Assembly: GCA_900471485.1 (NCBI GenBank)
Contig: UCEU01000013.1
Coordinates: 124,001-188,000, forward strand
DNA from: Hyphomicrobiales bacterium
GTDB lineage: Bacteria; Pseudomonadota; Alphaproteobacteria; Rhizobiales; Rhizobiaceae
Direction of reading: 5' to 3'
DNA length: 64,000 nt
The notes under the pieces were generated by a model, which did no database searches, had not been told where the DNA came from, and saw nothing but the letters and a program-made list of their open reading frames with translations. Both the position numbers and the translations under genes were made by a program. Below, piece by piece: positions 58,124 to 62,711 of this stretch; position 1 is the stretch's first letter; each line of letters opens with the position of its first letter.

Positions 58124-58198
58124 TGGGGCGTCGCCAAGCGGTAAGGCACCGGTTTTTGGTACCGGCATTCCCAGGTTCGAATCCTGGCGCCCCAGCCA
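58124..58198 (+). tRNA. tRNA-Gln (anticodon UUG)
   Basis: Acceptor TGGGGCG/CGCCCCA, D arm GCC...GGC, anticodon stem-loop CCGGT-TTTTGGT-ACCGG with TTG, T arm CCAGG-TTCGAAT-CCTGG, discriminator G and encoded CCA. All stems pair perfectly. A degenerate relative occurs at 59810. Confidence 0.96.
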
Positions 58199-58217
58199 CC
58201 TTGTTTCGGCGCGTTTC

Positions 58218-59618
58218 CTATTGGCTGAAGGCATACAACCGGTTGCCTTTCGGCGTCTCATCCTCGTCGTGATTTGCCGAACGCGCAGGCACGTCGAGGA
58301 CATACTCCATCAGCCAGGCTTGGCGTCTTTCCATCCAGATCTGTTGCGTGTTCGCTCTGGCGAAGTCTACCGCCTGACGCACCTGTCTTTTCAAGTCGCT
58401 TCTATTCTCGTCAAGGGCGACAAACGCCTCCGCAAGATTCTCGGCTGATGGCCAGGCGGTCGTCTTTACGGCTCCGCTCATCTCCGCGAGGTCGTTGAAA
58501 TAATCGAGATTGAAAGCGACGATGGGCAGTCCTCTTGCCATTGAATCGAATGCGGACCGCGGGGTGTCCTCCAGCAGCGGGCACGCAATCGAAGCGTGGA
58601 AGTTGAACAGGAGGCGAAACAGCGGTTCACCATACTTGACGGCAGGCAGGAAAGTGACTGCCTGCGACAGCCCGGCCTCCTCGGTTTGTCGGTGCAGCGA
58701 CTGCGCCTCAGGTCCGCTGCCAATGATTGTTAGCCGTATGTCGTTGCCTCGCGATCGCGCCAGACGAATGGCTTCGATAGCGCGATCCATTCCCTTGTAT
58801 TGGACCAGACGGCCGAAATAGACGAGGTTTAGAGGTCTGGTCTCGTCGTCGATCCAGGAAAGGCGCTGGTTCAACTCCTCGTCGGACAACACCTGTTCGA
58901 GCGAGTGCGCGGTGTCGAGCACGTTCTTTACGCTGGCCCTGCCTTTACCGAAGTCGCGGACCAGTTTGGGGCCCTTAAGCAAGACCAATTTCGATAGTCT
59001 TACCGCGAGCCAGACTTGAGCCCAGCGTAAGGGATCGTGCAGCAGACGGTTGATAAGGTAAGTCTTCCTGCTCCACATACCAAGTTGTCGAAGACGCTCG
59101 GTGTTGCGCCGAAAGTCGATGTCGACGACGAACAATGCACGTCTTCCGTAACGCCATGCGATAAAGTTGACCAGCAGCAGCATCGGCCGCCAAGTGTCGT
59201 GGGCGGGCCCCGTGTGCACCACGACGGCGCGCCTTATCGTTCGGTCAAGAACACGCCAAAGTTTCGGTACGTGGCGAAACCAGAATTCTTTCGTTGATGC
59301 GCTGGCCGGATAGGTGGGGACCGCCTCGATCCCTTCGTCGGCCGTGATGATGCCAAGCGACGGATTGTTGTCGAAATCGCTTCGGCTGAGTTCTGGCGCC
59401 ACGACTATCACCTTGCCGGCATGCTCGCCGAGCCGTGATTTTAGCTCCCTGAGATGATGGGAGAATGCGTCCTCGATCGCGAAGGAGCTGTCCGACAGTC
59501 GGTAGACCGGCGCCGGCACCGCGATGACATACGCGTTGTCCGCTGCTGAGTCCTTAAGCGATGAAACCGCTTTGATTGACGTTTCGCTTTGACCTGGAAT
59601 TTTCACGAACGAGGCCAC
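58218..59618 (-). CDS. GT4-like glycosyltransferase, paralogue 1
   Basis: About 466 residues from the GTG at 59618 (ASFVKIPGQSE). The C-terminal GT-B Rossmann domain shows LVYFGRLVQYKGMDRAIEAI, RLTIIGSGPEAQ, AVTFLPAVKYGE and LLEDTPRSAFDSMARGLPIV (nucleotide-sugar site, E/D-x7-like). N-terminal AYVIAVPAPVYRLSDSSFAI is shared with the gene at 59908; the two are about 60 percent alike by eye. No membrane helices. Probably builds a surface polysaccharide. No other polysaccharide genes are near. The start is uncertain; the open frame extends upstream to 59819. Confidence 0.85.
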   Translation of the reverse strand: MASFVKIPGQSETSIKAVSSLKDSAADNAYVIAVPAPVYRLSDSSFAIEDAFSHHLRELKSRLGEHAGKVIVVAPELSRSDFDNNPSLGIITADEGIEAVPTYPASASTKEFWFRHVPKLWRVLDRTIRRAVVVHTGPAHDTWRPMLLLVNFIAWRYGRRALFVVDIDFRRNTERLRQLGMWSRKTYLINRLLHDPLRWAQVWLAVRLSKLVLLKGPKLVRDFGKGRASVKNVLDTAHSLEQVLSDEELNQRLSWIDDETRPLNLVYFGRLVQYKGMDRAIEAIRLARSRGNDIRLTIIGSGPEAQSLHRQTEEAGLSQAVTFLPAVKYGEPLFRLLFNFHASIACPLLEDTPRSAFDSMARGLPIVAFNLDYFNDLAEMSGAVKTTAWPSAENLAEAFVALDENRSDLKRQVRQAVDFARANTQQIWMERRQAWLMEYVLDVPARSANHDEDETPKGNRLYAFSQ

Positions 59619-59809
59619 TCTGATTGAATTGCCTTCAAGATACCCGCTTGCTCCGAGAAGTTGAAGTTCGCAATAAGGAGACGGCAAGTACGCCCTTTGA
59701 TGCCCTCTCTGGTGCGGAGGCTTTTCTGGTCTTCCAAACGCGGAAGTGCCTGGGCTCATGGCGTTTACGCCGTCAATCCAACGCACAGGAACTGCCGGCG
59801 CTGAGCCTT

Positions 59810-59890
59810 TGGGGCGCAATCAGACGGTAGAGCCACCGGCTCTGGGTGCTGCCGGGATCCGGAGGCTCGAATCCGGCGCTCGGCAAGCGA
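59810..59890 (+). pseudogene. Degenerate tRNA-Gln copy
   Basis: TGGGGCG at the start equals the acceptor of tRNA-Gln at 58124; later GACGGTAGAGCCACCGG and GGCTCGAATCCGGCGC follow its D/anticodon and T-arm sequence (GGTTCGAATCCTGGCGC with one substitution and one deletion). A loop reading TCTGGGT suggests a CTG anticodon ancestor. The acceptor 3-prime strand is decayed (CGCTCGG), so it is not functional. It occupies the same place relative to paralogue 2 as tRNA-Gln does to paralogue 1. Confidence 0.6.
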
Positions 59891-59907
59891 TGAGGTCAGG
59901 CTCCATG

Positions 59908-61242
59908 CTACGCTTTTGGCGGAACGTTGAGCACATATTCCATAAGCCAGGCCTGTCGCCTTTCCATCCAGATTTGTTGCGTGTTGTCCCGCGCGAAAGC
60001 GATCGCCCTGCCGGCCTGCTCTGCAAGGATGCTTCGATCGTCATCCAGGGCGACGAACGCATCGGCGAGGCCCTCAGGAGAGGGCCAGGTCGTTGTCGTC
60101 ACTGCGCCGCTCATCTCGGCGAGGCCTTTGAAATAGTCGATATCGAATGCAACGATCGGCAGCCCCCGCGCCATGGCGTCGAACGCGCAGCGCGGCGTAT
60201 CCTCCACCAGCGGACTGGCGACGCATGCGTGACAATCGGATAGCAGCTCGAACAGCGGCGCGCCGTATTTGACGGCGGGTAGAAAAGTGATCGCATCGGT
60301 CAGCCGCGCTTCGGCGACCTGATGCTGCAGATCGGGCAGTTGGGGGCCGTCACCGATGATCGTCAGTCGGACATCGCTTCCTCGAGCTCGCGCGAGACGA
60401 ACAGCTTCGATCGCAAGATCTATGCCCTTATAGAGCACGATGCGGCCAAAGTATGCGAGATGAAGCGGCCTGGCCTTGTCGTGCAGCCACGCCAGCCGCT
60501 CTTCCGTCTCGCCCTTGGACAGTACCTGCTCTGCGCTGTGAACGACGTTGAGCAGGTTCTTGACCCTGGGCCGGCCTTTGCCGAAATCGCGCACCAATTC
60601 GGGGCTCTTCAGAAGGACCAGCCTTGAGAGCCTGACCGCGAACCAGATCTGCAGCCACCGCAAGGGATCATGAAACAGACGGTTCGTCAGGTAGTTTTTG
60701 CGGCTCCAGAGCCCCAAGTGCCGGAACCGCCAGGTGTTGCGCCGAAAGTCGATGTCGACGACGAACATCACGCGCTTCGTCAGAGACCAGGCGATGACAT
60801 TCACCAGCAGCATCATCGGGCGCCAGGTGTCCGACGAAAGGCTGCTATGCACGACACTCGCCTGACTGATCGTGCTGTAGAGCATGCGCGCCATCCGGGG
60901 CATATGCCGCAGCCAGAAATCGGGGACCGACGCGTTCTCTGGATAGGTGGGCAGCATCACGATGCCGTCGATGGCCGTCAGAATGCTCAGCGACGGGCTC
61001 TTGTCGAAGTCCGCCCTCGACATTTCCGGCGCGATCAGGATGATCTTGTCCACATGCTGGCCGAGTTGCGATCTGAGTTCCTTCAGATGGTGGGAAAACG
61101 CATCCTCTATTGCAAACGAACCATCCGCAAGCCGATACGCCGCGACCGGCACGGCGATGACATAGGCTTTTGAGGGCACCGTCTTCGCGTGGCGATAGGA
61201 GTTTGCCGCAATCAGGGTGAAGCTGGAGGCAATGATGTGCAC
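59908..61242 (-). CDS. GT4-like glycosyltransferase, paralogue 2
   Basis: 444 residues. It shares with paralogue 1 the N-terminal AYVIAVPVAAYRLADGSFAI, FVVDIDFRRNT, the C-terminal LAYFGRIVLYKGIDLAIEAV, RLTIIGDGPQLP, LPAVKYGAPLF, LVEDTPRCAFDAMARGLPIV and the shared tail NTQQIWMERRQAWLMEYVL. GT-B fold, UDP- or GDP-sugar dependent by family. The sugar and acceptor are unknown. Upstream, 61243-61503 has no gene on this strand, so it probably has its own promoter. Confidence 0.88.
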   Translation of the reverse strand: MHIIASSFTLIAANSYRHAKTVPSKAYVIAVPVAAYRLADGSFAIEDAFSHHLKELRSQLGQHVDKIILIAPEMSRADFDKSPSLSILTAIDGIVMLPTYPENASVPDFWLRHMPRMARMLYSTISQASVVHSSLSSDTWRPMMLLVNVIAWSLTKRVMFVVDIDFRRNTWRFRHLGLWSRKNYLTNRLFHDPLRWLQIWFAVRLSRLVLLKSPELVRDFGKGRPRVKNLLNVVHSAEQVLSKGETEERLAWLHDKARPLHLAYFGRIVLYKGIDLAIEAVRLARARGSDVRLTIIGDGPQLPDLQHQVAEARLTDAITFLPAVKYGAPLFELLSDCHACVASPLVEDTPRCAFDAMARGLPIVAFDIDYFKGLAEMSGAVTTTTWPSPEGLADAFVALDDDRSILAEQAGRAIAFARDNTQQIWMERRQAWLMEYVLNVPPKA

Positions 61243-61503: not shown

Positions 61504-61842
61504 ATGAAATTGAAATTTCTGTCCGCCGCGGTCGCTGCGGCTCTCTTGGCATCTGCTGGCGCTTCGCATGCTGATGAAGATCTCGTGTTCACGCTGAAGA
61601 ACGGCACGAACTCGGTGCTGACCAATTTCCACACCTCGCCCGTCGGCGTCGACGAGTGGGAAGACGACGTCTTCGGCAAGCAGGTACTCAATCCGGGCGA
61701 GAGTATGGACATCACCATCGCCGATGGCCGCGATGTCTGCAAATACGATATGCGTTTCGAGTTCGAGGAGGATTCAGATCTCGACACCACGACCGACACT
61801 CAGAACCTCTGCGAGATGAGCTCGTATACCATCCACGAATAA
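61504..61842 (+). CDS. Small secreted protein
   Basis: 112 residues with a Sec signal peptide (KLKFLSAAVAAALLASAGAS HADED). The mature part LVFTLKNGTNSVLTNFHTSP...DEWEDDVFGKQVLNPGES...ITIADGRDVCKYDMRFEFEE...LCEM is acidic and beta-rich with a Cys pair likely to form a disulfide. Similar small periplasmic proteins exist in rhizobia and methylobacteria. Function unknown. Confidence 0.8.
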   Translation: MKLKFLSAAVAAALLASAGASHADEDLVFTLKNGTNSVLTNFHTSPVGVDEWEDDVFGKQVLNPGESMDITIADGRDVCKYDMRFEFEEDSDLDTTTDTQNLCEMSSYTIHE

Positions 61843-61951: not shown

Positions 61952-62365
61952 TCAGCCCGCGGCAGGCGCAGGCGCCAGGAATTCGGCGCAGTAGGACGGA
62001 CCGTTGACGCCCGGAATGTCGCCGGAAACGCGGATGCTGCGGATCGTGTAGTCTGAACCGGTGGTGATTTCCGCCTGGCAGCGGAGATAGAGCGTGCGGG
62101 CAGGGGAAATCTGCTTGCCGCGCTTGCCGTCGGCGCCATCGGCGTACTTCGCGGGAACCCGCACCGTCTTGTAGCCACCCTTCCAGGTGTAGTTGACGCC
62201 CGAACCATTATCGACGTCGTTGATCGGCGGGCCGTAGGCCGCGAAGAACTTGCCGGCCGACTGGCCGACCCAGCGGCTGGAGATCGGATCGGCGGCGTTC
62301 GGAATGGTCGTGCAACCGGCAAGCGCAATGGCAAGCCCGGCCGCGGCAAAGGTGCGGAGTTTCAT
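61952..62365 (-). CDS. Predicted lipoprotein
   Basis: 137 residues. Signal with lipobox ALAGC near residue 18. The mature part NAADPISSRWVGQSAGKFFAAYGPPIND, YTWKGGYKTVRVPAKYADGAD and CQAEITTG...YCAEFLAPAPAAG has a Cys pair in the C-terminal half. Membrane-anchored periplasmic protein of unknown function, conserved in rhizobia. Confidence 0.82.
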   Translation of the reverse strand: MKLRTFAAAGLAIALAGCTTIPNAADPISSRWVGQSAGKFFAAYGPPINDVDNGSGVNYTWKGGYKTVRVPAKYADGADGKRGKQISPARTLYLRCQAEITTGSDYTIRSIRVSGDIPGVNGPSYCAEFLAPAPAAG

Positions 62366-62634
62366 CGTGTGTCCCTGAAGTTGTCGCGCATTCGACGGCG
62401 AATCGCTGCCTTAAGGCAGTCCTCGCATGTCCCGCCAAGCGCTTTAGCGCGGAATCCGGCAAAAGAAAATTAGGCCTTGTTCGCAATTGCAAAATTTGCC
62501 CGAACTGTGGCTTTTTCTCCGCCCCCAAAGCCCCCGCCGGCCACGCCTTCGCCGCGCAAAAGAAATGCGCGCAATTTTCGATTTTGACGCTTGCGCAATA
62601 AGATGCGCCGTTCTATAGAGGCGCCGCTGGTCAC

Positions 62635-62711
62635 GGAGTGTAGCGCAGTCTGGTAGCGCACCACGTTCGGGACGTGGGGGTCGCAAGTTCGAATCTTGCC
62701 ACTCCGACCAG
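62635..62711 (+). tRNA. tRNA-Pro (anticodon CGG)
   Basis: Acceptor CGGAGTG/CACTCCG, anticodon stem-loop CCACG-TTCGGGA-CGTGG with CGG, T arm GCAAG-TTCGAAT-CTTGC, discriminator A and encoded CCA. All arms pair. Confidence 0.96.

Follow-up and report, generated by a model that had tools for sequence, protein, structure and literature searches.

Two paralogous glycosyltransferase genes and a tRNA-Gln remnant at an insertion hotspot

Islander-type islands in tRNA genes are recognized by an intact tDNA together with a displaced tDNA fragment, and the account of this signature rejects intervals of <2 kb (PMC4383910). In the archaeon Pyrococcus yayanosii, integration left a partial Gln-TTG copy beside the mobile element PYG1, which is described as spanning ~21.4 kb with 44-bp direct repeats that have one difference (PMC9897764). 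In Sinorhizobium meliloti, tRNA genes gather islands and phages; the named hotspots are tRNA genes 010, 030 and 039, and tRNA-Gln(UUG), number 014, was found only in the gene table (PMC11476347). Here we describe a locus in a window of 64,000 nucleotides from a Hyphomicrobiales bacterium in the Rhizobium group (contig C45, positions 124001-188000; genome size 5.8 Mb; coordinates below are positions in the window), in which an intact tRNA-Gln(UUG) gene is followed by glycosyltransferase gene A, a decayed tRNA-Gln copy and glycosyltransferase gene B.

Like Islander-type islands, this locus has an intact tRNA gene, a degenerate copy in the same orientation downstream and patchy cargo between them, with occupied and unoccupied sites across relatives. 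Unlike them, it has only 1.6 kb between the copies, no integrase, and a full-length copy instead of an end fragment. It resembles PYG1 in having a second, non-functional Gln-TTG copy by the canonical gene, and differs from it in its 1.6-kb span and decayed full-length copy. The tRNA genes of S. meliloti, a member of a related genus, likewise take up insertions, serial ones among them.

On balance, we consider it probable that the locus arose by serial insertion at a tRNA-Gln hotspot and that the insertion which brought gene A has its inner edge at the second tRNA. The observations behind this reading are the tRNA remnant, the paralogy of the two genes, the hotspot, parallel cases in three other genomes, and a mismatch in age between the genes and the tRNA copy. 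Gene B, or a B-like gene, would initially have stood directly behind tRNA-Gln. DNA carrying gene A and a copy of tRNA-Gln would later have entered at the tRNA in a Campbell-type event, whether site-specific or mediated by homology of the tRNAs. The outcome would have been an intact tRNA-Gln outside, then gene A, then a second tRNA-Gln at the inner edge beside gene B. This redundant inner copy would then have decayed. Such a history would mean that one tRNA gene can gather lone sugar-transferase genes with no integrase remaining, and that the timing of an insertion can be read from a decayed tRNA independently of the genes around it.

The tRNA-Gln remnant and the two glycosyltransferases

The features that carry the argument are as follows.

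58124..58198, plus strand: intact tRNA-Gln(UUG), found by ARAGORN and by Rfam (60.6 bits); the sole match in its own genome at E<=0.001
58199..58217, plus strand: tRNA-Gln 3' flank; the alignment to the nearest relative, G114, ends after 58203, 5 bp past CCA
58218..59606, minus strand: predicted glycosyltransferase A, GT4 type, 462 amino acids; resembles an orthologue of the gene that four relatives have in single copy
59607..59809, minus strand: gene A upstream region, alignable to the gene's upstream region in the three relatives tested
59810..59879, plus strand: decayed tRNA-Gln copy; similarity restricted to the tRNA body
59908..61242, minus strand: predicted glycosyltransferase B, GT4 type, 444 amino acids; shares 64-66% identity with A and with the gene of the relatives

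The best local alignment of the intact tRNA-Gln to 59810-59879 scored 54, compared with a maximum of 43 when the intergenic sequence was dinucleotide-shuffled 5000 times and with 40 for the second-best site in the window on either strand. The alignment has 71 columns, and 50 of the 66 ungapped ones are identical (76%), with similar agreement in the two halves (24/36 and 26/35). It begins at the first tRNA base, upstream of which similarity is nil (15 vs a shuffled mean of 18.9). Pieces of the D-arm, anticodon stem and T-arm persist, and only the acceptor end is unclear. By its sequence, 59810-59879 is thus a pseudogene of tRNA-Gln over nearly its whole length. The original prediction had seen a partial tRNA here, which is indeed a genuine remnant, but its statement that all except the acceptor start and T-arm had been lost does not hold. 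It had also named the lack of a significant tRNA score as a reason to abandon its account: at the level of structure the score is lacking, with no covariance match at E<=10 and the cloverleaf threshold not reached, while the sequence homology is significant.

Among candidate parents (the tRNAs of 30 of the 41 tRNA loci of the same genome plus the window's tRNA-Gln), the next best was tRNA-Thr, which was rejected at a score of 38 vs 54. A search with the remnant across 148 genomes of the genus, that of the window and 147 others, gave matches in 8 of the others, all of them weak and 22-39 bases long. All 75 bases of the intact tRNA-Gln are the same in the five genomes that carry the glycosyltransferase genes.

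The A and B proteins share 284 of 444 residues (64%), and the stop codons of their genes lie 19 bp from the intact tRNA-Gln and 17-28 bp from the remnant, respectively, the latter varying with the alignment end chosen. The paralogy of two minus-strand glycosyltransferase genes, their ends about 20 bases from tRNA-Gln-type sequence, and the intact tRNA-Gln at 58124 had all been anticipated and were confirmed. Both proteins score above the cut-offs of the Pfam group 1 glycosyltransferase models (Glycos_transf_1 / Glyco_trans_1_4; C-terminal domain), and no NCBIfam model reaches its cut-off for either. They are predicted GT4-type glycosyltransferases, a family label that we in part presume. Assessed for a GT-B fold along the entire chain, the predicted structure has a mean pLDDT (predicted local distance difference test) of 56, and its best PDB matches, such as MshA and HepE, are weak, with low TM-scores (template modelling scores) of ~0.3-0.45.

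Relatives at E<=1e-30 were found in 5 of the 148 genus genomes, that of the window counted. In a family sample of 247 genomes at the same threshold, and in a class sample of 385 searched with a profile at E<=1e-40, the window's own genome was the only one matched. At the thresholds used, the subfamily is confined to the genus among the genomes sampled. The four other carriers (G025, G075, G121 and G135) each have one copy, in the same place. No relative with both genes turned up among the 147 other genus genomes, so the proposed comparison of their adjacency had no case to draw on. Each of these single copies shares 72-73% identity with A and 64-66% with B. A single-protein query returned no named relatives of the gene and an alignment query returned three loci; 25 plasmid records had matches, all of <60% identity and none covering >80% of the query. 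On a tree of three flanking genes, built from the 52 of 80 hotspot loci that have all three, the carriers require three changes and all five fall in one supported group of 25 rows (99/98), so that the pattern may reflect a gain followed by losses as well as repeated gain.

A turnover hotspot behind tRNA-Gln

The 3' flank of tRNA-Gln is a turnover hotspot. We compared 80 genomes, that of the window and 79 of the 147 others in the genus (of a 60-genome set, G061, G064 and G089 were left out, and locus L043 was superseded by the longer L101 from the same genome). The right-hand landmark, tRNA-Pro(CGG), lay outside the examined piece in 30 of the 80 loci; across the other 50, the gap from tRNA-Gln to tRNA-Pro ranged from 800 to 7208 bp, being <=950 bp in 24 and longer in 26. 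An insert at the 3' end of tRNA-Gln is present in some relatives and absent in others. In the window, the variable filling runs from 58204 to ~61900, that is, from tRNA-Gln(UUG) to a conserved open reading frame (ORF) beside tRNA-Pro. The right-hand part of the locus contains the following features.

61504..61842, plus strand: orf112, a 112-amino-acid ORF that in G073 and G074 also sits between tRNA-Gln and orf137
61952..62365, minus strand: orf137, a 137-amino-acid ORF, the common right-hand neighbour of the hotspot
62634..62710, plus strand: tRNA-Pro(CGG), the right-hand landmark, on the examined piece in 50/80 loci

The nearest relative, G114, is 92% identical to the window in the neighbouring metallo-beta-lactamase-fold gene and 97% in orf137. 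Up to 58203 its sequence agrees with that of the window at 243 of 254 positions, and there the similarity ends; the five bases directly after tRNA-Gln are common to the window and G114 alone among the 80 genomes.

In G121 (L101), ~5 kb encoding a MobA/MobL relaxase (with a BID-type domain match) and an MNT-HEPN fusion protein lie between tRNA-Gln and the glycosyltransferase gene, which reads as stepwise insertion on the tRNA side. In G004, G079 and G014 (L141, L142 and L045), a common cargo of ~1.3 kb, 86-93% identical, is bracketed by an intact and a decaying tRNA-Gln. The cargo has an NTP_transf_2 domain and encodes an MNT-like nucleotidyltransferase (shown for G014), and the bracketing tRNA-Gln copies have no similarity beyond the tRNA. 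The decay pattern of the second copy varies among these three genomes; in G014 it forms an identity block, with 36/36 bases identical in the 3' half and 30/36 in the 5' half. Overall, a second tRNA-Gln-like stretch with a score >=45 up to 6 kb downstream occurs in 4 of the 80 loci including that of the window, and on the reverse strand in none; in G043 a second tRNA-Gln match exists outside the examined piece.

Several smaller observations concern the same region. In G012 (L109), the hotspot cargo is a 340-amino-acid protein encoded 305-1327 bp behind tRNA-Gln, which, going by its sequence, we take to resemble an FtsZ paralogue. G073 and G074 have orf112 by orf137 but no glycosyltransferase, and orf112 has no match in Pfam or NCBIfam at E<=0.001. 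In G100, a phage-type integrase (G100:C2:458359-458826) lies immediately behind tRNA-Pro(CGG) and not tRNA-Gln, so the right-hand landmark may also be an insertion target.

Serial insertion and its alternatives

The silent sites of A and B are saturated (synonymous divergence, dS, 2.16; fourfold-site difference 0.61), which rules out a recent duplication. Comparisons of A, B and the genes of the four relatives gave dS values of 1.2-2.2, likewise saturated, apart from two relatives that are mutually close (dS 0.21). A tRNA copy freed from selection at the A/B split should be near random, and at a fourfold-site identity of 0.39 the chance of 50/66 identity is about 1e-9. Silent-site saturation alongside a tRNA copy that is still 76% identical indicates that the copy either functioned for long or arrived later. 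Sliding comparison of A and B, judged by eye, showed no window that stands out, and gene conversion between them was rejected.

The upstream regions differ in their affinities. That of A aligned to those of three of the four single-gene relatives with scores of 58, 66 and 53 (maxima of 300 shuffles: 43, 46 and 49), whereas that of B did not match the same three (34, 35 and 30; shuffle maxima 51, 49 and 56). The two upstream regions are unrelated to each other (30 vs a shuffled mean of 27.3), and we found no similarity of the two tRNA-plus-gene units past the tRNA and coding regions. In a tree rooted with distant plasmid-borne enzymes, which have long branches, B fell weakly outside A and the relatives (68/58). 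Taken together, the age mismatch, the upstream regions and the tree favour separate arrivals of A and B without proving them.

These results bear on the history that the original prediction thought simplest, a single tandem duplication of tRNA-Gln plus glycosyltransferase followed by decay of one tRNA. It is weakened because the genes are saturated, the tRNA copy is 76% identical, and the single-gene relatives are closer to A than B is. An old duplication could still account for the locus if the second tRNA had long been functional and decayed late, and if B had evolved faster than A and been lost, or never arisen, elsewhere. It would yield two tRNA-gene units in succession, of the same orientation and with like spacing between tRNA and gene, and also a clade of A and B; tRNA genes have been reported to duplicate by tandem events in evolved Pseudomonas (PMC7661048). 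We nevertheless hold it fairly unlikely: A and B have unrelated upstream regions, yet that of A is alignable to that of other species; the repeat would need its left edge exactly on the first tRNA base, as there is no upstream similarity; the age mismatch demands a long functional life of the tRNA copy; and in the three parallel cases the cargo occurs once, before the tRNA copy. Homologous recombination, by which tRNA-Gln and gene A from a donor entered a recipient with B behind its tRNA-Gln and were joined illegitimately at the other end with no mobile element, would yield the same end structure as serial insertion. It requires no integrase and suits the occurrence of the gene at the same place in related genomes, but gene A is just 72-73% identical to any copy found, and by itself this route leaves the tRNA-bracketed cargo of G004, G079 and G014 unexplained; we regard it as quite improbable. 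Hardly credible, finally, is that the resemblance at 59810 arose by chance or reflects a separate structural RNA. The lack of a tRNA covariance score is in its favour, but the alignment score lies above all shuffles and the remnant stands relative to its gene as the intact tRNA does. Nothing points to a further structured RNA, because 59800-59907 folds no better than shuffles (z -0.85, -0.62), by which a terminator was rejected as well; 59810-59907 contains no terminator-like site.

The alternative offered in the original prediction, that the partial tRNA is a remnant of an attachment site, agrees better with a site that is a cargo hotspot and with the three genomes in which cargo is flanked by an intact and a decaying tRNA-Gln; the integrase and the clean 3' fragment that it might lead one to expect are absent. 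Several results weigh against serial insertion. The remnant is full length and lacks a 3'-end identity block, unlike a classical attR, and there is no clear identity block in G004 (33/36, 35/36) or G079 (33/37, 33/37) either. A search for tyrosine-integrase genes (PF00589, E<=1e-8) at tRNA-Gln was negative in all 12 genomes covered, including that of the window; at this threshold contig C45 has no match at all, and no integrase gene lies between the tRNA copies. The four single-gene relatives have no second tRNA (best scores 20-23), and G114 lacks both glycosyltransferases, which requires a later loss or a late gain. A clade of A and B is not rejected (approximately unbiased, AU, test, p 0.157), and hand-summed raw distances (with G025 and G135), which are unrooted, slightly pair A with B. 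Because the integrase is missing and A and B may yet be sisters, we infer, rather than observe, serial insertion, with its order of arrival, tRNA-bearing intermediate and recombination machinery.

An IS481-like element at tRNA T-arms

In other genomes, the tRNA-Gln 3' flank can also bear an IS481-like element with a 403-amino-acid transposase (L155:6664-7875; loci L170-L235), whose homologue in L119 has Pfam integrase-core, helix-turn-helix and IS481 leucine-zipper matches. At E<=1e-120, the transposase occurs in 31 of the 148 genus genomes, that of the window not among them. Of the 55 listed copies, 49 distinct ones, at 50 loci with one place represented twice, were examined, on the transposase-stop side alone. 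At 37 of these loci, the distance from the transposase stop to the end of a tRNA gene is 41-43 bp (once 51), polarity is the same throughout, and the tRNA genes concerned have 12 anticodons; where related genomes have the element at the same tRNA, the copies may have been inherited and so not be independent. After setting aside five loci with too short a flank and two with an unrecognisable left end, 43 remained. The T-arm motif GGTTCRANTCC (<=1 mismatch) lies 23-26 bp before the element in 41 of these (23 or 24 bp in 37) and is missing from two; four motif-bearing sites had no complete tRNA gene that we could find. The background frequency of the motif in the tRNA-Gln regions, tRNA-Gln itself included, is ~5e-5 per base and strand. 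Three-base target duplications fit 18 of 35 copies. Elsewhere in the class, 16 copies occur in 8 of 289 genomes; the flank is too short in three, and of the remaining 13, ten (six of them in one genome) have both motif and tRNA gene.

From these positions, the element looks like a one-protein transposon homing on T-arm DNA. Tn7-like elements, by comparison, are described as reaching tRNA genes through TnsD/TniQ or guide RNAs (PMC11406308). An apparent one-protein transposon that tracks the T-arms of many isotypes offers a testable case of sequence-directed target choice. We recognised no tRNA-directed IS481 element in the literature searched, outside of which most subscription journals fall, and its novelty is not established.

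The element lies behind tRNA-Gln in 8 of the 80 genomes: three (G016, G038 and G143) have it in full, one has a copy truncated at the end of a contig, three retain relics of 44-116 bp and one has a match of just 18 bp. It is conceivable, though we consider it doubtful, that homing on the T-arm motif directs the element to this tRNA-Gln 3' flank and that its repeated insertion, with adjacent deletions, drives the gain and loss of glycosyltransferases and other cargo, including the loss of both genes in G114. In that genome (L147), ~80 bp of one end of the element, 84% identical to another copy, lie ~9 bp behind tRNA-Gln. The remnant in the window has diverged by 24%, and fourfold sites of the window and G114 by 19-29%; on this rough clock, and if rates are equal, decay of the remnant would have begun before the two lineages split. 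Because the start of decay would predate the split and the relic adjoins tRNA-Gln, G114 may have lost the array beside the IS481-like element, although the stretch behind this reading is short and the clock approximate.

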